Shown here: positions 9,543 through 24,121 of the stretch, one piece after another | Layout: each line of letters opens with the position of its first letter | How positions within the stretch are numbered: position 1 is the stretch's first letter | Source: a virus | IMG/VR virus record: IMGVR_UViG_3300035162_003018 | Span: 1-24,490 of that record | Direction: 5' to 3' (one strand) | DNA length: 24,490 nt | The notes under the pieces: model-generated | What the model was told of the DNA's origin: nothing | Database searches by the model: none | Seen by the model: only the letters and a program-made list of their open reading frames with translations | Translations under genes and position numbers: made by a program

Positions 9543-9767
9543 CTACTTTCTTTTTGGTGCTGACTTCAACTGTGATCGACGCTTAAGGACTGGGTTGCCT
9601 GTTGATTCTGACTTGATCTTGATCACTGGGTCATCTGCAGTGCCAACCCTAACGATGTTGCCGCCTTTAGGCCCTTTGATTGCAGCCCTGGCGCCGCCCA
9701 TTGCGGTAACAGTGCCAAAAGTGCGCTTGCCTTGATAAACCCAACTGACCCGTTGACCTTTTCTCAT
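9543..9767 (-). CDS. Small basic tudor-like (HVA1/DUF2945-type) protein
   Basis: A 74-aa protein starting MRKGQRVSWVYQGKRTFGTV. The pattern kG..VsW...g....GtV......p.v.ikse.tG....r..s.L matches the DUF2945/HVA1 tudor-like domain: VSW at residues 7-9, GTV at 18-20, and VIKIKSESTGNPVLKRRSQL near the end. An inserted AMGGARAAIKGPKGG loop is Gly/Lys-rich. The fold is a small beta barrel of unknown biochemical role, common in phage and bacteria. Its ATG overlaps the stop of a 19-codon ORF as ATGA. Confidence 0.7.
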   Translation of the reverse strand: MRKGQRVSWVYQGKRTFGTVTAMGGARAAIKGPKGGNIVRVGTADDPVIKIKSESTGNPVLKRRSQLKSAPKRK

Positions 9768-9847: not shown

Positions 9848-11080
9848 CTACGGCTGCCCGTACCTTGCTTTCAGCTGCTTCAGCGTCAGCTCTGAACCGT
9901 CAGTTGCTAAAAACTTGCGGATTGCATCTTCTGACCCGTATTTCTTCACCAGCTTGTTCCAGTAGGGGATCCTGCTCGGCCCCAAAACATCGCGCTTTAT
10001 GTCGTCGCCTTGTTCCTGCAACCATTCCCCATAAGACTGATTTGCCGGGACCGTCCGCGTCTTGGCTGCTTTGCTCATCGGCCCTGAGATGATGCCTGGC
10101 CTTCGTATTGCACTCGGTGGTGGCTCAGGCATCCCTAGCGCTGCATAATCGATCTCTGGCACGGTCGTTGATCTGCAGTTGAAATGCTGCGGTGGTGTTG
10201 GCCCTTTGCCGTACTCAAACACCTGTTGATCTAACGCCCTGCATCGTGCCGATGTGCGGGAATCAAGCGTCGCAACGTATTTGTATTTCTCAGTAATCTC
10301 GGCATTGCCCTTGTAGGTGGCTTGGCTGACCGCATTTGCCACCTGATTAACACTGGTCCTCACCAGCGTGTTTACCTGATGATTGGCCACTGCTGTGAGC
10401 TGCCCGCCTGCCTGCGCTAGTTGCCGCACTGACAACGGCCCAAAATCAGCAAATTTCAAACGGCCCTTTAGGCGCCTCGCCATCTGCGGCCCTGAGTCAC
10501 CCGCTAGAAATCCAGACTGCACGGTTTTGGTGAACAGCTCGGCTTGAGATTCAGCGATCCCCCTAAACGCTTTCGATACGGTTGAGCCATTCGGAAGCGT
10601 GATTTGAGCGCCTTGAGTCGCAGTCAGTCTGAACGTTGTCGGTGATGGCCCTACGGCTTCCAGCAGGTCGTCAGACAGAACATTCAAGCCAATCTCGATT
10701 GGGTCTGTCATCACGACAGCGCGAGCAAAAGCAGGATCGATCTGCAGCGCTTTCACCTGATCAGCTAGCCGCTCTGGCACCATCTCCAGCAGTTGCGCCC
10801 TGACAAACTGCTCTTCAAACGCTGAAAGCCCTTGAAGCTCACCCACTAACAATGCAGAGCTTTCGCCTGCCCAATTGTTGAGGCTTGCCCGTAGCTGCCT
10901 AACGATCTCCCTAAGACGTGTCTGACGGTCAAAGGCTCGCTCATCTTCGACCAGAATCTGCAGCTCCGCGACAGCCTGCAAAATCAATCGGTTGTAAGCA
11001 ATCGCAATCTGCTTTGCCTCAGCATTGCTAAATCGATTTAGGTCAACAGCGTGCCGATAAAACTCAGACGGGGTGCTCAT
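9848..11080 (-). CDS. Minor capsid / head morphogenesis protein (Mu F / SPP1 gp7-like)
   Basis: A 410-aa protein. Residues about 269-307 carry the Mu-F-like signature: ATLDSRTSARCRALDQQVF, then PPQHFNCRSTTVPEI with C280, H299 and C302. Preceding it is VNTLVRTSVNQVANAVSQAT (residues 236-255), the usual helix of this family. The protein binds portal and enters the procapsid in SPP1. Its ATG overlaps the portal stop as ATGA (11080-11077), and portal-minor capsid adjacency is conserved in many siphophages. The C-terminal tail GSELTLKQLKARYGQP lies beyond the core domain. Confidence 0.9.
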   Translation of the reverse strand: MSTPSEFYRHAVDLNRFSNAEAKQIAIAYNRLILQAVAELQILVEDERAFDRQTRLREIVRQLRASLNNWAGESSALLVGELQGLSAFEEQFVRAQLLEMVPERLADQVKALQIDPAFARAVVMTDPIEIGLNVLSDDLLEAVGPSPTTFRLTATQGAQITLPNGSTVSKAFRGIAESQAELFTKTVQSGFLAGDSGPQMARRLKGRLKFADFGPLSVRQLAQAGGQLTAVANHQVNTLVRTSVNQVANAVSQATYKGNAEITEKYKYVATLDSRTSARCRALDQQVFEYGKGPTPPQHFNCRSTTVPEIDYAALGMPEPPPSAIRRPGIISGPMSKAAKTRTVPANQSYGEWLQEQGDDIKRDVLGPSRIPYWNKLVKKYGSEDAIRKFLATDGSELTLKQLKARYGQP

Positions 11081-12438
11081 TCCTGCAGGCCACCGGCAGC
11101 CGTTGCCTCAAGCTCCTCCTCTAGGTCAAAGTCATCACCAAGCACTTCACCGGCCTCAAGTTGCGTCAACAACGTCGATTGCGTGATGGTGCCGGCCAAA
11201 TAAAGCTCAAGCAATGCTTTGATTTCGCTCGGGTCCATACGGGAGCCCATGAAATCACGGTTGATCAATGCGCTGCCGGGTGATGTGTCGTTCAGATAAT
11301 CAGCATGAAACCGCAGGCAGTTGTCGATCATGTCCTGCATATTTTGGGCGATCACCATCATCGTTGAATCGCCTTGGCTGCGATCGATGCGCTTTGATTC
11401 AGCAGTTTCAGCCGATAGCTTTTGGCCCAGCACACTGGCCAAGCCCAGCTCATTGATCTGCTTTTCGATCTGATCCAGCCGCTGGAACAATGCGTTAAAG
11501 CTGGCCCCGCCTGGCTCAATGTATTGCGCTGATGCGCCTTCAGGCAGCGCAAGCGCTTCATTTGGCCCGGCACTAATCTCCTCTGCTGATTGCGGGAAAC
11601 CAAAAATGGCCAACATCGGAACAGCCGCGACGTGAAGAATATTGTCTAAATCTGATTGAACTTGATACGCCTTGATGTTTAATTCACCAATGTCTTCCAT
11701 TGGCGGCTTTGATTGCAGATAATTGACGCGGTTGCTGTATGCAACTGAAAACGGTATTTCGCTAAGGCTTGTTTTGCCTTCCTCAAACAATTTGTACTCT
11801 TTCCCCTCATCTTGCCTGAACAGCTCGTAATATCCTGGCGTCAATACTCTCACCTGATTAACTGTTTTTTCGCCGTATTCTCCATCAGGCTCGGTCACCT
11901 GTTCTTTTAGCCTGAGCTGGACAAGCCGGGGCTTGCCGTCTTGCGTTTCAGTGCGCCATCCCAAAATGCTGCGCGGGTCATAGCTGCACCAATACGGCCT
12001 GCCGTTCCCGTCTGATGGTGCATCAACCAAAACGCCAACATGACCATATCGGATCGCCTTACGGGCTGTTTCATATACCCAAGTGTTCAGGTCATTTCCT
12101 TGCCGGTCAACATCAAATAAGTCCTCACGGATGCCGTCACTGATGTCATTCAGCTTTACCGGCTTGCGGGCAAGCATCCCGGCCAGCAGCCGCTCAAGCC
12201 TGACGTAATACGGTTGCAGCGTGCTGCGAAGCAGTCTGTTTTGGTAGGCATCATCTTGCTCACGCGGTTCCTGCGGGAGGTATTTACGCCCCTCTTTCCT
12301 GATGCCATAAGTGCCTGTCAGCAAGCACTCAATCAGCTCCCAGTGTGGTTCTTGGTCAACCCATGCCTGATTTGGGTCATAGACATTTACAACCTTTGAG
12401 GTTTTAACTCTATTCCGTGCCGTTGATTGATAGCCCAA
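11077..12438 (-). CDS. Portal protein (DUF4055-type)
   Basis: A 453-aa protein with the DUF4055 portal layout: HWELIECLLTGTYGIRKEGR (residues 33-52), LPQEPREQDDAYQNRLLRST, LERLLAGMLARKP, and KAIRYGHVGVLVDAP. It also has a C-terminal half with ALALPEGASAQYIEPGG, SAETAESKRIDRSQGDSTMM and an acidic end. The portal forms the dodecameric DNA channel and terminase dock. The start is a TTG at 12438. A stop codon lies 18 bases upstream in frame and no ATG occurs between, while AAAAGG lies about 10 bases before the TTG. The stop overlaps the minor capsid start. Confidence 0.92.
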   Translation of the reverse strand: MGYQSTARNRVKTSKVVNVYDPNQAWVDQEPHWELIECLLTGTYGIRKEGRKYLPQEPREQDDAYQNRLLRSTLQPYYVRLERLLAGMLARKPVKLNDISDGIREDLFDVDRQGNDLNTWVYETARKAIRYGHVGVLVDAPSDGNGRPYWCSYDPRSILGWRTETQDGKPRLVQLRLKEQVTEPDGEYGEKTVNQVRVLTPGYYELFRQDEGKEYKLFEEGKTSLSEIPFSVAYSNRVNYLQSKPPMEDIGELNIKAYQVQSDLDNILHVAAVPMLAIFGFPQSAEEISAGPNEALALPEGASAQYIEPGGASFNALFQRLDQIEKQINELGLASVLGQKLSAETAESKRIDRSQGDSTMMVIAQNMQDMIDNCLRFHADYLNDTSPGSALINRDFMGSRMDPSEIKALLELYLAGTITQSTLLTQLEAGEVLGDDFDLEEELEATAAGGLQE

Positions 12439-12802: not shown

Positions 12803-12973
12803 ATGGACGATCTAGACGTAAGCGCCACCGCAGACGATTGCGTGAGGGTGTGCCTGACAGAGGAAGGGATCACCAGCTGCTGCAACGTGTCGTCGTATCA
12901 CTTGGTGGAATCGCACCGTAAGCAGCTGCGGCAGGCAAATGCACGAAAAGCAGCTGCGGCTTATAAGCATTAA
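12803..12973 (+). CDS. Isolated plus-strand small ORF (56 aa), possibly coding
   Basis: It opens with MDDLDVSATADDCVRVCLTE, continues with a CC pair in ITSCCNVSSYHLVESHRKQ, and ends with a basic Ala-rich tail RKAAAAYKH. It is the only plausible plus-strand gene in 22 kb of minus-strand genes and sits in the gap between two late units. AGAGG lies one base before the ATG, with a second AGAGG 13 bases upstream, so ribosome binding is doubtful. The four clustered cysteines could bind metal. The alternative is that this is a regulatory gap with no gene. Confidence 0.4.
   Translation: MDDLDVSATADDCVRVCLTEEGITSCCNVSSYHLVESHRKQLRQANARKAAAAYKH
12920..12960. repeat. 13-base direct repeat AAGCAGCTGCGGC, two copies
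   Basis: AAGCAGCTGCGGC occurs at 12920-12932 and 12948-12960, 28 bases apart (not a multiple of three, so not a protein repeat). Each holds the palindrome GCAGCTGC. The pair lies just beyond the terminator, upstream of the portal-tail transcription unit, where a promoter or operator would be expected. No clear -35/-10 pair was identified nearby. Confidence 0.5.
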
Positions 12974-13001
12974 AAAACCCCACTCCCTGCAAGGAGTGAG
13001 G
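12972..13001 (-). terminator. Strong intrinsic terminator of the terminase/basic-protein unit
   Basis: On the minus strand, CCTCACTCC (13001-12993) pairs over 9 bp (one G-U) with GGAGTGGGG (12986-12978) around a six-base loop TTGCAG. TTTTTT (12977-12972) follows directly. It lies 34 bases after the stop of the 603-aa basic protein gene, so it separates that unit from the portal-tail unit. It would not terminate plus-strand transcripts, because no T-run follows there. Confidence 0.88.
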
Positions 13002-13035
13002 TCTGGGGAACCTATGAATGAAAAATCGTAGCAGG

Positions 13036-14847
13036 TCAGCTCCTGCGACGTTTAGGCTTCCGGCGTTTGGCGGCATTAGAGACAGCCTTCTGCACCGATT
13101 CATTGACGCTGATTGCCTTCCCTTTGTTGCGAGCAGTTGCCGCAGGCTTCAGGATGAACTGAGACCGCCTTTCGGCTGTCCTTACGAAATTTGCGTTACG
13201 TCTGCCAGGCAGCGCCTTTCGTCCGCGTTGTGCATCCATCCTCGCCACGATCCGGCCAGCTTTTGCCTCGCTGATCTTGCCCACCGCTCCACGGCGCTTC
13301 GCTGCGGCTGGTTTCGCTGCTGCTGGTTTCCGGCCTTTAGATAGCGCTTTTGATGCAATGTTTTTACCGCCACCCGCAGATCTGAGCTTTTCTTGCAGCT
13401 GTTTCGACCGACCGAGCCTGCGCTGGTTTGCGTTAGCTGTTGATTGATTAAAAGTTCCATCGGGGTTGTAATTGCTAGCCCTCCGGCCTTGGCGTCTTGC
13501 GACGATTTCAGACTGCCTTTCAGCAATTCTGCTCATTCTTCCCGACTTCCTTTCGGCAACATCACCTTTTCGGGCTGCTTTGGCCCGCGATGACATGCTT
13601 GCGATGCCTTTGCGCCCCTGCTCTTTATTGGTCGCCAAACTATTTACCCTGATTTTTTGCCCTGACCGCTTGAGCTTTGTCTTTGCTGCTGCTGGCTTTG
13701 CTGCGGCTGGTTTGGCCTTGCCTTTCTTCCCGCCAGTTGCTGGATCCTGGCCCCGTGCTCCTTTCGTCAACCGCCCGCCATAATCTCGGCTGCGCTTATC
13801 CGTTACTGACGGTTTTGATAGCGCCTTGCCCAATCGGCCCTTGTCTTCTTTAAGCATCCGGCCCCGCAGTGCATCAGCCTGCTTCTTTACACCGCGCAAC
13901 TTGTCAGCCGATCCCTTTAGGGCTTTGCCCTTTTTGATCACATTATCGATCGCACGATTCATCTTGGTGCGCGGTGACTTCGGCCCCGGCTTGATCGTGT
14001 TTTTAGGGCCAAGCCTGCCGCCAGTCCGTCTGATGTTGCCTTGAGCGACGGGCCTGGTCAGCTTGCCGGTAGCCCGTGCGCTATTGGCCGTTACGCTTTT
14101 TTTTTTAGCGCGTGCTGCCGTAAGCTTCTCGCCTTTCTTGATCCTCGCCCTCAAAACATCAGGGTTTTGTGTGCGGGTAAGTCTTGATGTGGTTTTCTTC
14201 GATGCGCTGATCTTGCCGCTGTAAATATCTTGGGCACGCTTTGCAACAGATGCGCTGCGGGATTGTTTAGCAGTACCAGCCCCGTCGCCCCTAGCTGCAT
14301 AGGCTTTCCTTTCGTTGCTGGAAGCCCTTTTGACCCGTGCAAGCTCCCTTGCTTTTTGCTTGCTGCGTGGAGCGTCTGCGCCTGCTTTAGGTGTTGATGC
14401 CGATCTGCGGCGCTGCATATTCTTGACCTTGGCTGACGCGCTATTGGCCATCCGCCGCTCCTTAGCATCTGCGCCTCTCAGGTCTGCATTCCTCATCCGA
14501 GCGTCACCGCTGGCACGCTTGTAAGCAACTTTTGCCTTATTGGTTGGCCCCTTGCTTGTCCGTGCTGATGTCGGCTTTGATCGTGCTGCTACATCTCTTG
14601 CGATTTGGCGGTCAGTGGCCCTGCTGCTTGCGTTGACCTTCCGCTTTGAACTCGACTTTGAGATGGTGTTTTTCATCTCACCGATCCTGCTTGGCTTGAC
14701 GATTGCCCCGCCACCGTCGCGTTTCTTGCCCTTAGCTTTCAGCCGTGCGCCACGGCCTCCCGTCTGACCGCTAAAACCCTTAGACGCAAAACGCCCGATT
14801 GAGTCGCGGACGTACTTCCTGCCAGATCCGCCGCCGCGCTTTGCCAT
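13036..14847 (-). CDS. Large, extremely basic, probably disordered histone-H1-like protein (603 aa)
   Basis: By hand count about 172 of 603 residues are Lys or Arg against about 35 Asp or Glu, and there is no Cys, His or Trp. The N-terminus reads MAKRGGGSGRKYVRDSIGRF; RDS.GRFAS is a motif seen in several phage basic proteins. Composition is Ala/Ser/Gly/Lys/Arg throughout, with two H1-like tandems KPAAAKPAAAK near residues 379-389 and 507-517 and a basic end KRRKPKRRRS. No folded domain is recognised. It lies 14 bases after terL and before the terminator and portal genes. A DNA-binding virion, internal or packaging-related protein is the likeliest reading. Uninterrupted length and in-frame position argue for a real gene; function is inferred. 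Confidence 0.82.
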   Translation of the reverse strand: MAKRGGGSGRKYVRDSIGRFASKGFSGQTGGRGARLKAKGKKRDGGGAIVKPSRIGEMKNTISKSSSKRKVNASSRATDRQIARDVAARSKPTSARTSKGPTNKAKVAYKRASGDARMRNADLRGADAKERRMANSASAKVKNMQRRRSASTPKAGADAPRSKQKARELARVKRASSNERKAYAARGDGAGTAKQSRSASVAKRAQDIYSGKISASKKTTSRLTRTQNPDVLRARIKKGEKLTAARAKKKSVTANSARATGKLTRPVAQGNIRRTGGRLGPKNTIKPGPKSPRTKMNRAIDNVIKKGKALKGSADKLRGVKKQADALRGRMLKEDKGRLGKALSKPSVTDKRSRDYGGRLTKGARGQDPATGGKKGKAKPAAAKPAAAKTKLKRSGQKIRVNSLATNKEQGRKGIASMSSRAKAARKGDVAERKSGRMSRIAERQSEIVARRQGRRASNYNPDGTFNQSTANANQRRLGRSKQLQEKLRSAGGGKNIASKALSKGRKPAAAKPAAAKRRGAVGKISEAKAGRIVARMDAQRGRKALPGRRNANFVRTAERRSQFILKPAATARNKGKAISVNESVQKAVSNAAKRRKPKRRRS

Positions 14848-14861
14848 TGTTCAATGTTTCG

Positions 14862-16268
14862 TTAGTACAGTCTAATCCCGGTGCCACGGCCAGCCCTGCG
14901 ATGCAGTGGGTTCAGCTCACGCCATACGAGATACCCTGCCGCGTCGTTCATGTGATCATGGCCAGATTCTTTGTCTGGCTCCTGCCGCTCGTTATATGCC
15001 TGCAGCTCTAGGCATTCGATCAGCTTTTTGCATCGTGGGTTGATCTGGATCCTGATTTCACCTTTCCCGTTCTCCAAAGCACCTTGCAGAGCAGAAACCC
15101 GATCAGCGACCCTGGGATTGGCCTTAGGCGATTGGTTGCTGATGCCATAACTGGCCAATATCTCCAGATCAGTTTTGGTCGCATTAGTCGAGCGGTTGCC
15201 ACCTGAGGCATCGGGGTAGCCGTAAAGCGTCCGGCCTGGGTAACGAGCGCAAATCTCTTGTGCCAGGGCATCAGTATCGTGCGCCTGGCTGATCTCATCG
15301 ATGAAATGCAGGGCATTGCCTGACCGGATCGCGACCACTGCGTTCATATTGCCCACATTGAAATCAATGCCAATTCTCAGCGGCTCCTCAGCCAGTGGAT
15401 CATCATCAACGCCTGAGACGTGCTTAGCCCGGTCAAACCTGTCATAGACCGTGCCCGTCGCCAGGTTCTGGTATACGCCTTCTAGGTAAGCCCGGCATTG
15501 CTCTTGGGTGTAACGGCTCAGCAGGTCATCGACGAAACCAGGCCGGAGGTTATGGGCATTATCTGCCGTCTTCATCCTCAGCAGCGCTCGGCGCTTGCCC
15601 TCCCGTGCTGCATCAGTGCCGAAAGTTTGGTAATGGAACCCAAAGCCCTCTGGCGTTGAGTAGCAGTGGAGCTGGTTGAAGTTTCCGACCCTGATACGGC
15701 CCAGGATCTTGTCATAAGCACGCTGAGCGATTGAGGCTTTCGCAGTATCAACCTCATCGATGATTGCGAAGGCCCAGTCATCACCAACGATGCGTTGATA
15801 ATTTTCAAACGACAGGCCAAGGATTGTTGAATCACCGCCAGGAAAATGCAAAGTATGACTTACATACGGCGCCACTCGTGGGGTGTATGGAATGCCAAAA
15901 CTATCTAAAAAATCTTCAAACTTTGGCGCCCAAATTCTGCGCACCATATCGCTGGTTGGTTCCATCACACAGCCGACAAAGCCTTGGTTCAAGGCGGCCA
16001 TCTTTACGGCAACCGCATGAGCGCAATAAGTCTTGCCGCTGCCATAACCGGCGCTGATGCCGATTTCAGGGATGCTGTTAGGTGATCCGCCTTGTGATGC
16101 AGCGATAGCGCTCAAGCGCTCTACCTCAAATGCGCTGAGCTGACCAGCGTTAAGCGTGGCCGCGATGCGTTGCAAAAGGTCGTCAACATCAGCCAATGCC
16201 GAACGGCTGCCTACCGCCTCAGTCTGCAGTTCTGCCAGCCTGGCAAGTATTGGGTTATCCCTCTTCAC
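14862..16268 (-). CDS. terL: Terminase large subunit
   Basis: A 468-aa DNA-packaging motor. The ATPase has Walker A GYGSGKT (residues 74-80) and Walker B FAIIDE (167-172), with a motif III-like CYSTPEGFG at 202-210. The RNase-H-like nuclease has D302 in IGIDFNVG, a D/E pair at 324-325, D353 in YPDASG, and D438/D442 in GHDHMNDAAGYLVW. The start is a GTG at 16268, overlapping the small subunit by 14 bases; no ATG occurs until residue 90. A leader of about 60 residues precedes the ATPase core. The nuclease cuts concatemers; whether it is a cos or pac enzyme cannot be told from the sequence. Confidence 0.95.
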   Translation of the reverse strand: MKRDNPILARLAELQTEAVGSRSALADVDDLLQRIAATLNAGQLSAFEVERLSAIAASQGGSPNSIPEIGISAGYGSGKTYCAHAVAVKMAALNQGFVGCVMEPTSDMVRRIWAPKFEDFLDSFGIPYTPRVAPYVSHTLHFPGGDSTILGLSFENYQRIVGDDWAFAIIDEVDTAKASIAQRAYDKILGRIRVGNFNQLHCYSTPEGFGFHYQTFGTDAAREGKRRALLRMKTADNAHNLRPGFVDDLLSRYTQEQCRAYLEGVYQNLATGTVYDRFDRAKHVSGVDDDPLAEEPLRIGIDFNVGNMNAVVAIRSGNALHFIDEISQAHDTDALAQEICARYPGRTLYGYPDASGGNRSTNATKTDLEILASYGISNQSPKANPRVADRVSALQGALENGKGEIRIQINPRCKKLIECLELQAYNERQEPDKESGHDHMNDAAGYLVWRELNPLHRRAGRGTGIRLY

Positions 16269-16734
16269 TTGGCACTAACTCTTGACCGGTTTTGGCCTGA
16301 ATGCGAAGCAGAACGGTGCGCTCTTGCTCTGGCGTGAGGTTTGCCTCAGCGATGGCTGATACGGCAGCTTCAATGCCTTCATTTCTTGCGCGTGTGACGG
16401 CGGCATTGTCGCTGTAGTGCTTGCGATATGACGGACTATGAGTAAGCATCCATTGCGCTGATTTGCTATCACCATCTTGCGCACAACTTGTGATGATATT
16501 TATAAATTTATGGGCACCAGCTGCACGACCTTCATTAAGAGCATCCAGAAGAGCTATTTCTTCTTCAGTAGGGCTAGGGCCTTTTGCATTGCCAATCCAC
16601 TGCTTTAAGGCTGCATAACTAACACCAACTGCAGCGGCGATGTGTTCTAGAGCTGCGCCATATTCTGCGAGATGGCGAACGGCTTCAATTACTTTTGAGT
16701 TTAGTTTGTAATGTCGCCGCCTTAAGTTTGCCAT
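16255..16734 (-). CDS. terS: Terminase small subunit-like DNA-binding protein
   Basis: A 159-aa protein with an N-terminal helix-turn-helix at about residues 30-49 (EHIAAAVGVSYAALKQWIGN), preceded by basic MANLRRRHYK. A central helical region follows (EEEIALLDALNEGRAAGAHK, then KSAQWMLTHSPSYRKHYS), then an acidic Glu-rich C-terminus. This order, HTH, oligomerisation core and large-subunit-binding tail, is that of small terminases, and the gene overlaps terL by 14 bases. It would recognise the packaging site. Confidence 0.85.
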   Translation of the reverse strand: MANLRRRHYKLNSKVIEAVRHLAEYGAALEHIAAAVGVSYAALKQWIGNAKGPSPTEEEIALLDALNEGRAAGAHKFINIITSCAQDGDSKSAQWMLTHSPSYRKHYSDNAAVTRARNEGIEAAVSAIAEANLTPEQERTVLLRIQAKTGQELVPSEEG

Positions 16735-22485: not shown

Positions 22486-22559
22486 GTGAAGAGATGCGAC
22501 TTCAAATGAGCGTTTCTTGGATGCTCGCGGTTATGTTGCCGAGGCATCAAAAGCACCCT
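22486..22559. promoter_or_regulatory. Divergent intergenic region between replication and recombination genes
   Basis: The minus-strand helicase starts at 22485 and the plus-strand exonuclease probably at 22560, leaving 74 bases for back-to-back promoters. Clear -35/-10 pairs are not obvious by eye. GAGGCATCAAAAG at 22541-22553 also occurs at 12786-12798, just before the other plus-strand ORF. Regulatory function follows from the divergent layout only. Confidence 0.4.
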
Positions 22560-23360
22560 ATGCCAAAACTGACGCATCACCCGAACTTGAGCAATGAGGA
22601 ATATCACGCGATGTCAGCGGTCAGCCCTAGCAGGTTGAAAGAGCGGACGATGCTGCATTATTGGGACCGCTTTGAGAACCCAAACGCGATCAAGGCAGCG
22701 CCTACGGCAGCGATGCAAAAGGGAACGGCGCTTCATACTGCGGTTTTAGAGCCCGAAACATGGACGGATGTGGTGGCGGTTCAGCCGCGATTAGATCGCA
22801 GAACAAAAGCAGGCAAGGCGGCTGCTGCTGAATTTGAGCAGGCTGCTGCAGGCCGAGTCGTTTTAAGCGCTGACGATGCCGAGGAAGTGGCATTCATGGC
22901 TGAGGCTGTGCGTTCCCATCCAGCGGCAAAATTTTTGCTTGAAATGCCGGGCAAGGTTGAGCAGTCGTATAGCTGGACCGATGCTGCGACAGGCGTGGAA
23001 TGCAAAACCCGGCCTGACTGGCATTCAGCAGATCAGCGGATTGTTGTGGATGTAAAAACCACGCAAGACGCAAGCCGATCTGGATTTGCCAAGAGCACAG
23101 CCAATTTTTCTTATCACATTCAAGCTGCATGGAACCAAGATGCACTTGGCGCTGAGCAGTTCATCACGATTGCTGTTGAATCAATACGGCCCTATGCCGT
23201 AGCGGTTTACCCAGCGTCGCCGCTGATGATTACAGCGGGCCAGCGCCGGATCAGCAGGGCATTGGAGCAGATCGCAGAATGCAGAGCTTCTGGTGTCTGG
23301 CCTGGTTATGGAGATCAGATCCAAGAGCCGCTTGAGCTGCCTGGATGGTGCAATGACTAA
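22560..23360 (+). CDS. PD-(D/E)XK exonuclease (RecE/YqaJ-like, DUF3799 type)
   Basis: A 266-aa protein from the ATG at 22560. It has an N-terminal LSNEEYHAMSAVSPSRLKE (10-28), typical of RecE-like nucleases, KGTALHTAVLEPE (54-66), and a core with GVECKTRPDWHS (145-156, D153) and IVVDVKTTQDAS (161-172, D164-x-K166). Q188 lies in HIQAAWNQ. It should resect double-stranded DNA for the RecT-like partner encoded next. An earlier in-frame ATG at 22494 would add 22 residues. I prefer 22560 because homologues begin at this LSNEEYH segment and because it leaves room for promoters. Confidence 0.87.
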   Translation: MPKLTHHPNLSNEEYHAMSAVSPSRLKERTMLHYWDRFENPNAIKAAPTAAMQKGTALHTAVLEPETWTDVVAVQPRLDRRTKAGKAAAAEFEQAAAGRVVLSADDAEEVAFMAEAVRSHPAAKFLLEMPGKVEQSYSWTDAATGVECKTRPDWHSADQRIVVDVKTTQDASRSGFAKSTANFSYHIQAAWNQDALGAEQFITIAVESIRPYAVAVYPASPLMITAGQRRISRALEQIAECRASGVWPGYGDQIQEPLELPGWCND

Positions 23361-23568
23361 CGCTGACAAGCAACTGCTTGAGCTTTACCGCTACAGAACA
23401 AACCCTCAACCGCCTAACTATGACGAACTCATCAGCGATTACGACAACGCAATCACCAACGCCGCTCGCGTTCTTGCACAACGGCCAAGCACTGGAGCAC
23501 CTGTATCGGGTAGCGAAAGTGTTCTCAATGTCTGGGATGGTGCCTCAACACTTTCAGGGCAAGCCTGA
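23353..23568 (+). CDS. Small overlapping ORF (71 aa) between exonuclease and RecT-like gene
   Basis: An ATG at 23353 overlaps the exonuclease stop by 8 bases. The product begins MTNADKQLLELYRYRTNPQP and PNYDELISDYDNAITNAARV, a convincing helical, charged start. The second half (STGAPVSGSESVLNVWDG) looks less protein-like. Its last 149 bases overlap the RecT-like gene in another frame. It may be a real small gene whose 3' end has run into the next gene, or an overprinted ORF. Function unknown. Confidence 0.45.
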   Translation: MTNADKQLLELYRYRTNPQPPNYDELISDYDNAITNAARVLAQRPSTGAPVSGSESVLNVWDGASTLSGQA

Positions 23569-24121
23569 AGCGTGTTTAGTTGCATTGATGTATGCCGAAC
23601 AGCTTGGGGAGCATCCAATGGTGATGTTTCAAGAGGTGGCGATCATCAAAGGCAAGCCAAGCACAAGCGCCAAGTTTTCAATTAGCCGGGCGAATAAGTC
23701 AGGGCTGCTTTCTGGCCCGATCACATGGGAGACCACCGGCAGCGGTGAATCGTTAGTTGTGACGGCCAAAGCAACGATGAAAGAAACAGGTGAGCGGATT
23801 GACGTGTCTGTCTCACTGGCAGAAGCCAAGGCTGATGGCTGGACCAGCAATTCAAAGTATCGGACAATGCCTGAGCAAATGCTGAGGTGGCGATCTGCAA
23901 CACGGCTAATTAATTTGTTTATGCCTGAAGTGTTGCTTGGCCTTGGGGTCAAAGAAGAGATGGAGACGATTAAGCCTGCAAGGGTTCAAGTTGAAGACGC
24001 GCCGGTCACTAATGTTGTGGCGGAGCTGAATGAGCAGATCACGGCGCAGCAAATGCCTGTTGTCGTTCAAGATGCGGAGCCGTCTCCTGCTCCTGCTGCT
24101 GACATTGCTGACCCTTTCTAA
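23420..24121 (+). CDS. RecT-like single-strand annealing recombinase
   Basis: A 233-aa protein from the ATG at 23420 (a TTG 14 codons earlier is also possible). It has LYRVAKVFSMSGMVPQHFQG (28-47), KPEACLVALMYAEQLGEHPM, VAIIKGKPSTSAKF (73-86), and YRTMPEQMLRWRSATRLINL (147-166). These match the conserved core of RecT-like phage recombinases (VPk.f.gkp..vlva...a.elG..pm..lq...vi.GkPs, then mP..Mlr.ra..r). The C-terminus beyond 175 is acidic and disordered, ending DIADPF, which may contact SSB or the nuclease. It lies between exonuclease and SSB, a RecE/RecT-type pathway. Confidence 0.8.
   Translation: MTNSSAITTTQSPTPLAFLHNGQALEHLYRVAKVFSMSGMVPQHFQGKPEACLVALMYAEQLGEHPMVMFQEVAIIKGKPSTSAKFSISRANKSGLLSGPITWETTGSGESLVVTAKATMKETGERIDVSVSLAEAKADGWTSNSKYRTMPEQMLRWRSATRLINLFMPEVLLGLGVKEEMETIKPARVQVEDAPVTNVVAELNEQITAQQMPVVVQDAEPSPAPAADIADPF

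Follow-up and report, generated by a model that had tools for sequence, protein, structure and literature searches.

A stretch of viral DNA of 24,490 nucleotides (IMG/VR record IMGVR_UViG_3300035162_003018), hereafter the window, carries a long gene for an extremely basic protein between its terminase and portal genes. What is this protein, and what might it do there? A preliminary description had regarded it as a disordered, DNA-binding-like protein resembling histone H1, in a place where no standard siphophage module was known to have such a gene, and had offered three roles: condensation of DNA in the capsid, packaging of the concatemer, or ejection into the host to coat DNA.

A highly basic protein encoded between terminase and portal

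The gene is a single open reading frame with an ATG start and a TGA stop, which the preliminary description had placed exactly, without giving its strand (minus). The 603-residue product contains 86 Lys and 86 Arg (28.5%) against 21 Asp and 14 Glu (5.8%), in line with the 29% and 6% first counted by hand. As had also been noticed, it has no Cys, His or Trp and includes two KPAAAKPAAAK runs (Table 1). Its net charge is +137, with a pI of ≈12.0 and a mass of 64.6 kDa. Homologues occur in dozens of independent contigs, in which synonymous changes far outnumber nonsynonymous ones, and the reading frame is therefore not due to chance.

Table 1. Features of the window at and around the basic gene.
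Feature	Position	Strand	Basis or remark
Basic-protein gene, 603 aa, leader N2-A-B-W-C-tail	13036..14847	-	ORF, module mapping, composition
Constant leader, residues 1–92, type N2	14572..14847	-	Family-wide core motif; median dN/dS 0.08
Module A, residues 103–245	14113..14541	-	9 marine copies, median dN/dS 0.11
A10 homopolymer seam, encodes ARAKKKSVTAN	14097..14106	-	Modules A, D and G are all followed by this seam; frameshift in some relatives with A9 or A8
Module B, residues 255–375	13723..14085	-	Also alone with leader in the L167–L174 lineage
Linker seam KPAAAKPAAAK, residues 379–389	13681..13713	-	Seam DNA comparison
Module W, residues 389–506	13330..13683	-	Only in the window genome and matching record L001
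Linker seam KPAAAKPAAAK, residues 507–517	13297..13329	-	Seam DNA comparison
Module C, residues 518–596	13060..13296	-	Predicted three-helix bundle
Constant 3' seam and tail KPKRRRS-stop (AAACG[TC]CGCAGGAGCTGA)	13036..13059	-	Conserved 3' end
Terminase large subunit (terL), immediately upstream of basic gene	14862..16268	-	Annotation searches
Terminase small subunit (terS)	16255..16734	-	Annotation search
Portal	11077..12438	-	Annotation searches
Terminator-like hairpin and T-run, just downstream of basic gene	12978..12994	-	Terminator scan
RecE-like exonuclease VIII, possible shuffling agent	22494..23360	+	E 1.8e-79
RecT-like ssDNA annealing protein, possible shuffling agent	23378..24121	+	E 4.4e-58; Pfam RecT

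The gene order is terS, terL, basic gene, terminator-like hairpin, portal, MuF, scaffold, major capsid protein, connector genes and tail genes. The basic gene starts 18 nt past the terL coding region and runs in the same direction as the terminase, in agreement with the shared transcription unit and the location between terminase and portal proposed earlier. The strong terminator that had been placed after the gene held up in part: the hairpin and T-run are there, and related phages retain terminator-like sequence at this point, but the site is a consensus match, and the scanned region contained 13 such sites where 8.2 were expected. A short conserved hairpin, GCAGGAGCTGACCTGC (13031–13046, minus strand), contains the stop codon of the basic gene and is kept even at some loci from which the gene is missing.

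TerL of the window is 58% identical to that of Synechococcus phage KBS-S-2A and 52% identical to those of Prochlorococcus phages MED4-184 and P-HS2, which puts the window among uncultivated kin of the picocyanobacterial siphoviruses; this kinship is the sole ground for inferring the host of the phage. Several small features of the neighborhood may be recorded here. Convergent to the basic gene lies a 56-aa ORF (MDDLDVSATADDCVRVCLTEEG..., window 12803–12973, plus strand); since KBS-S-2A encodes a comparable protein of 61 aa upstream of its terminase genes, this looks to be a small gene conserved among cyanophages. A 74-aa protein between MuF and scaffold (window 9543–9767, minus strand) matches Pfam Hva1_TUDOR, and the C-terminal end of module O, found in related proteins, resembles by eye a small barrel akin to it. 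The MuF gene of one relative (L008, 6076–8133; same phage type as L009) has an insertion with similarity to intein-splicing/HINT domains (Pfam PF14890, below cut-off) that is absent from the window MuF, while in L033 (6076–6882) a 268-aa gene between MuF and the 74-aa gene resembles by eye a PAPS-reductase/phosphorothioation-type enzyme.

Pfam, PHROGs, NCBIfam and PDB sequences contained no match to the basic protein, nor did 50,697 cultured phage records when queried by tblastn with the full-length protein, its leader, a member from fresh water, a short paralogue and module O. Among GTDB genomes, 94 pattern matches included no relative, and literature searches for a comparable protein returned nothing close. 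The earlier remark that no standard siphophage module was known to have such a gene at this place was borne out in that no known equivalent was found.

Conserved basic modules, variable in number, between a constant leader and tail

A search of IMG/VR with the 70-residue leader alone found 138 relatives, and all relatives described here are metagenomic contigs. The leader core motif common to the family is R.Y.RD..GRF...R.RL...G.KR, and the form common among relatives from the leader search is R.Y.RD..GRF....R.GRL...G.KR. In contigs whose TerL protein is 91–100% identical to that of the window, the gene has the same start, the constant leader, a differing interior and, nearly always, the constant tail with the 3' sequence AAACGCCGCAGGAGCTGACCTGCTACG. 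We defined 16 modules of 67–222 aa and three leader variants, with borders seeded by eye from the proteins and then mapped by BLAST. In the near-relative clade (terL mostly 88–96% identical at the nucleotide level), the 22 complete genes have 21 different architectures built from these 16 modules, and the only pair that shares an architecture has terL genes that are 99.5% identical; L100 (N1-A-J-M) provides one further architecture. Near-identical phages thus carry different module combinations, and the borders between modules have DNA seams in common.

The same modules recur far outside this clade. Modules A, C, D, E, G, H, J, K, O and P are found at 30–65% identity in lineages with TerL only ≈50–57% identical, and module B at 61–66%; in one of the other lineages (L167–L174), B alone with the leader makes up a protein of 191–193 aa. 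Combinations in the distant lineages are again varied, with the pairings E-P, A-C, A-O and G-O kept. Comparison of modules with each other by hhalign, with few sequences behind each link, connected H-P (95%), J-K (92%), E-M (91%), C-E (90%) and F-J (82%), against 4.8% for the best reversed control, which suggests descent from a few ancestral modules. Protein length ranges from 100 to 831 aa across relatives, at a K+R content that stays nearly constant across architectures, mostly 27–31%. Two recombinant phages, L182 and L191, have a TerL only 54% identical but a portal 94% identical to that of the window; L182 carries after terL a minimal leader-bearing basic gene of 120 aa, possibly a simple or ancestral form. 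Judged from these contigs, the family is one of very basic viral proteins with a fixed front and tail around recombining, reusable modules, whose members have so far come solely from uncultivated viruses related to those of marine Synechococcus.

Since all loci are metagenomic contigs and seams of short repeats can mislead assemblers, the combinatorial variation could be an artefact of strains joined at repeated linkers. However, identical architectures were recovered from different samples, including N1-A-C (L005, L006 and L010), N1-J (L025 and L101), N1-N3-A-E-H (L008 and L009), B-I (L014–L016) and B-G-O (L017 and L026), which lessens the concern. Frames stay open across nearly all junctions, and the four module pairings kept in distant lineages also speak against chimeras. 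We consider this explanation very improbable.

Median dN/dS (Nei–Gojobori, marine copies), calculated without regard to recombination inside modules, was 0.04–0.18 for modules A, B, C, D, E, F, H, J, K and M together with leaders N1 and N2 (0.08–0.12 for the two leaders), and 0.30–0.39 for G, I, Lm and N3; dS was mostly 0.25–0.6 in these comparisons. For the well-sampled modules other than G the medians span 0.07–0.18, a sign of strong purifying selection. Such low values indicate that the amino-acid sequence of each module matters, which rules out a spacer as well as a chain under selection for its charge alone. A spurious ORF or a degenerating disordered spacer, as the low-complexity stretches and the frameshifted copies in L011, L018 and L124 might have implied, was rejected on these values and on the conservation of modules across lineages, and is scarcely credible. 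For the same reason we rejected a generic H1-like chain: instead of a uniform disordered protein, there is a leader followed by specifically conserved modules.

Structure prediction gave a three-helix bundle for module C, with helices of 14, 26 and 16 residues and a mean pLDDT of 73 (>80 in most helical parts). A Foldseek search with the model gave E values >1, and the weak similarity to histones had a best VIA Z score of 3.3 (rmsd 4.9 over 58 residues), a Z far below the meaningful level for helical bundles; a histone fold thus has no significant structural support and is not claimed. The AlphaFold model of the leader with module B (mean pLDDT 62) was left out of the fold search; in it the leader is mostly disordered with a weak hairpin and B forms a long helix.

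Module seams and loss of the gene

When seams with different neighbors on both sides were compared across up to 36 nt, 9.5% of 1,617 pairs were at least 75% identical; among 2,736 control pairs from module interiors, none reached this level. The two dominant seam types are the KPAAAKPAAAK codons and a run of ten A followed by GCGTAACGGCCAATA. Most genes have the A10 run; L011 has A9 and L019 has A8, and there the resulting frameshift leads to an early end or another tail. Slippage or phase variation in this run, setting the number of modules translated, is a possible consequence.

Pairs of the RecE/RecT type recombine DNA at short homologies, and the RecE- and RecT-like proteins of the window are for this reason plausible agents of the shuffling. 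The annealing system of the phage would recombine co-infecting genomes at the short seams, so that modules are created and deleted. In L045–L052, TerL is ≈95% identical, whereas the portal is only 64–70% identical and the terL–portal gap contains no basic gene; this contrast indicates recombination between terL and portal.

The gene as a whole can also be lost, in frame and by way of its end seams. An intact copy is missing from eight near relatives, six of which keep in-frame scar ORFs: L030, L178 and L180 have at the site only MAKRRKPKRRRS followed by a stop codon, and L044, L056 and L181 only MAKRRRS and a stop. In L033 the start codon is lost and L036 has a decayed remnant. The gene-less phages are otherwise ≈95% identical in their head proteins. 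Its removal seems to have taken place on more than one occasion, mostly in frame via the end seams, and we conclude from the eight relatives that the gene is dispensable. The preliminary description had named absence together with a degenerate frame as evidence against its reading; the gene is indeed cleanly absent from some relatives, but it is strongly conserved wherever present.

These losses bear on the DNA condensation and concatemer packaging suggested at the outset. A constant, general role of either kind is hard to reconcile with a gene that near relatives have repeatedly and cleanly lost, and with the range of lengths. An accessory of head assembly or packaging that condenses DNA or neutralizes charge, for which bulk charge matters and module content is nearly neutral, would be in keeping with the extreme net charge, the location beside terL and the nearly constant K+R content. 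Against it stand the same losses and length range, together with strong purifying selection and cross-lineage conservation of modules, which imply that more than charge is selected; we regard such an accessory as unlikely.

Candidate role and comparison with known systems

In 86 of 88 distinct relatives the gene lies co-directionally inside the head gene module, a count that is biased, since terL or portal similarity served to fetch some of the loci; in the set obtained with just the leader, L136 and L137 are the sole loci without recognizable head genes nearby. Its position varies: it comes before terL in 25 relatives and after terL in 45 (40 with portal next), and elsewhere it stands ahead of portal, in the portal–MuF or portal–scaffold interval, or after MuF (MuF–scaffold). 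The two exceptions, L136 and L137, are entries of one phage type in which the gene adjoins a non-head ORF. In some phages the MuF–scaffold interval contains an additional, shorter gene whose leader motif is related.

We favor, with a probability of about one half, the reading that the gene is an allele coding for a hypervariable and modular accessory protein of the head module, one that is packaged and ejected, with host- or defence-directed modules shuffled at the seams. This reading is preferred because it accounts for the conservation of each module and their near-free assortment, for the dispensability of the gene, and for a protein of extreme charge with a constant leader that is encoded in the head module. 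Among the roles first offered, ejection into the host fits best, as a candidate role. The leader would be a sorting signal that brings the protein to the procapsid or packaging machinery, and the charge would hold it on the packaged DNA until ejection with that DNA. Inside the cell each module might target the host or a defence, and many module combinations would be maintained in the population by the diversity of hosts.

Several observations count against packaging. No prohead protease was recognized among the head and neck genes of the window, so the leader would not be removable as in T4. The gene belongs to the terminase unit, with a terminator-like site between it and the portal and capsid genes; in L136/L137 it lies next to a non-head ORF; and the cultured phages KBS-S-2A and MED4-184 have no leader motif in the 25 kb around terL. 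The main rival explanation takes up some of these points. A protein that never enters the capsid might bind phage or host DNA or RNA in the infected cell, as a packaging helper, in nucleoid takeover or as an RNA-binding protein, with modules that vary by host; transcription with the terminase rather than the capsid genes, dispensability, the L136/L137 arrangement and a charge suited to any nucleic-acid binding all agree with this. Yet re-positioning confined to the head module in 86 of 88 genes is unexpected for a free intracellular protein, and the common leader suggests a common destination. We think a non-virion protein somewhat unlikely.

More tentatively, the family could be a new class of phage delivery protein: a cassette array within one ORF, reassorted by the phage RecET at in-frame seams, by which each virion lineage injects different basic modules directed at host or defence. 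The family was found to have no database entry or cultured member, and natural phage populations hold at least 16 conserved modules of it, assorted almost freely inside one gene. Should the modules act after ejection, aquatic cyanophages would have in them a ready stock of factors for anti-defence or host takeover, and the seams would show a route to quick evolution of such phage proteins.

Histone H1-like bacterial proteins rich in lysine, alanine and proline, such as AlgP and HctB, have KPAAAK-type repeats and extreme charge. The basic protein shares both, but here the repeats are mere linkers between conserved modules, and searches of Pfam and PDB sequences gave no H1 globular domain or H1-like homology. 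In T4-like phages, accessory, non-essential cassettes recombine at short conserved border motifs (PeSLs). The name PeSLs is used in PMC4503421. Short common border sequences likewise permit recombination in the basic gene, but the T4-like phages swap whole genes, whereas the basic gene swaps protein modules in frame within one ORF.

The polyvalent proteins of phages and plasmids are chains of several modules whose architecture changes; their genes lie close to virion genes, and the proteins are presumed to be injected together with the DNA (Iyer, Burroughs, Aravind et al. 2017, PMC5512222). The basic protein resembles them in having several distinct modules in changing order, but its modules are short and highly basic, and no enzymatic or Ard domain was matched.

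The closest parallel in function may be the internal head proteins IPI, IPII and IPIII of T4, which are small, basic, DNA-binding and ejected, have a capsid-targeting N-terminal peptide, are poorly conserved and largely dispensable, and are tied to a restriction arms race (PMC9026906). The basic protein is likewise highly basic and dispensable, with a constant N-terminal leader and a variable body. It differs in its many modules per chain, shuffled at in-frame seams, and in its place beside the terminase in a siphophage-type genome. As no homology to the T4 proteins was found in Pfam, PHROGs, NCBIfam or PDB sequences and no prohead protease was recognized among the head and neck genes of the window, it is not, by sequence, a member of their family. 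Its likeness to them would be one of function, achieved without a recognizable prohead protease and in the form of a shuffled multi-module chain.
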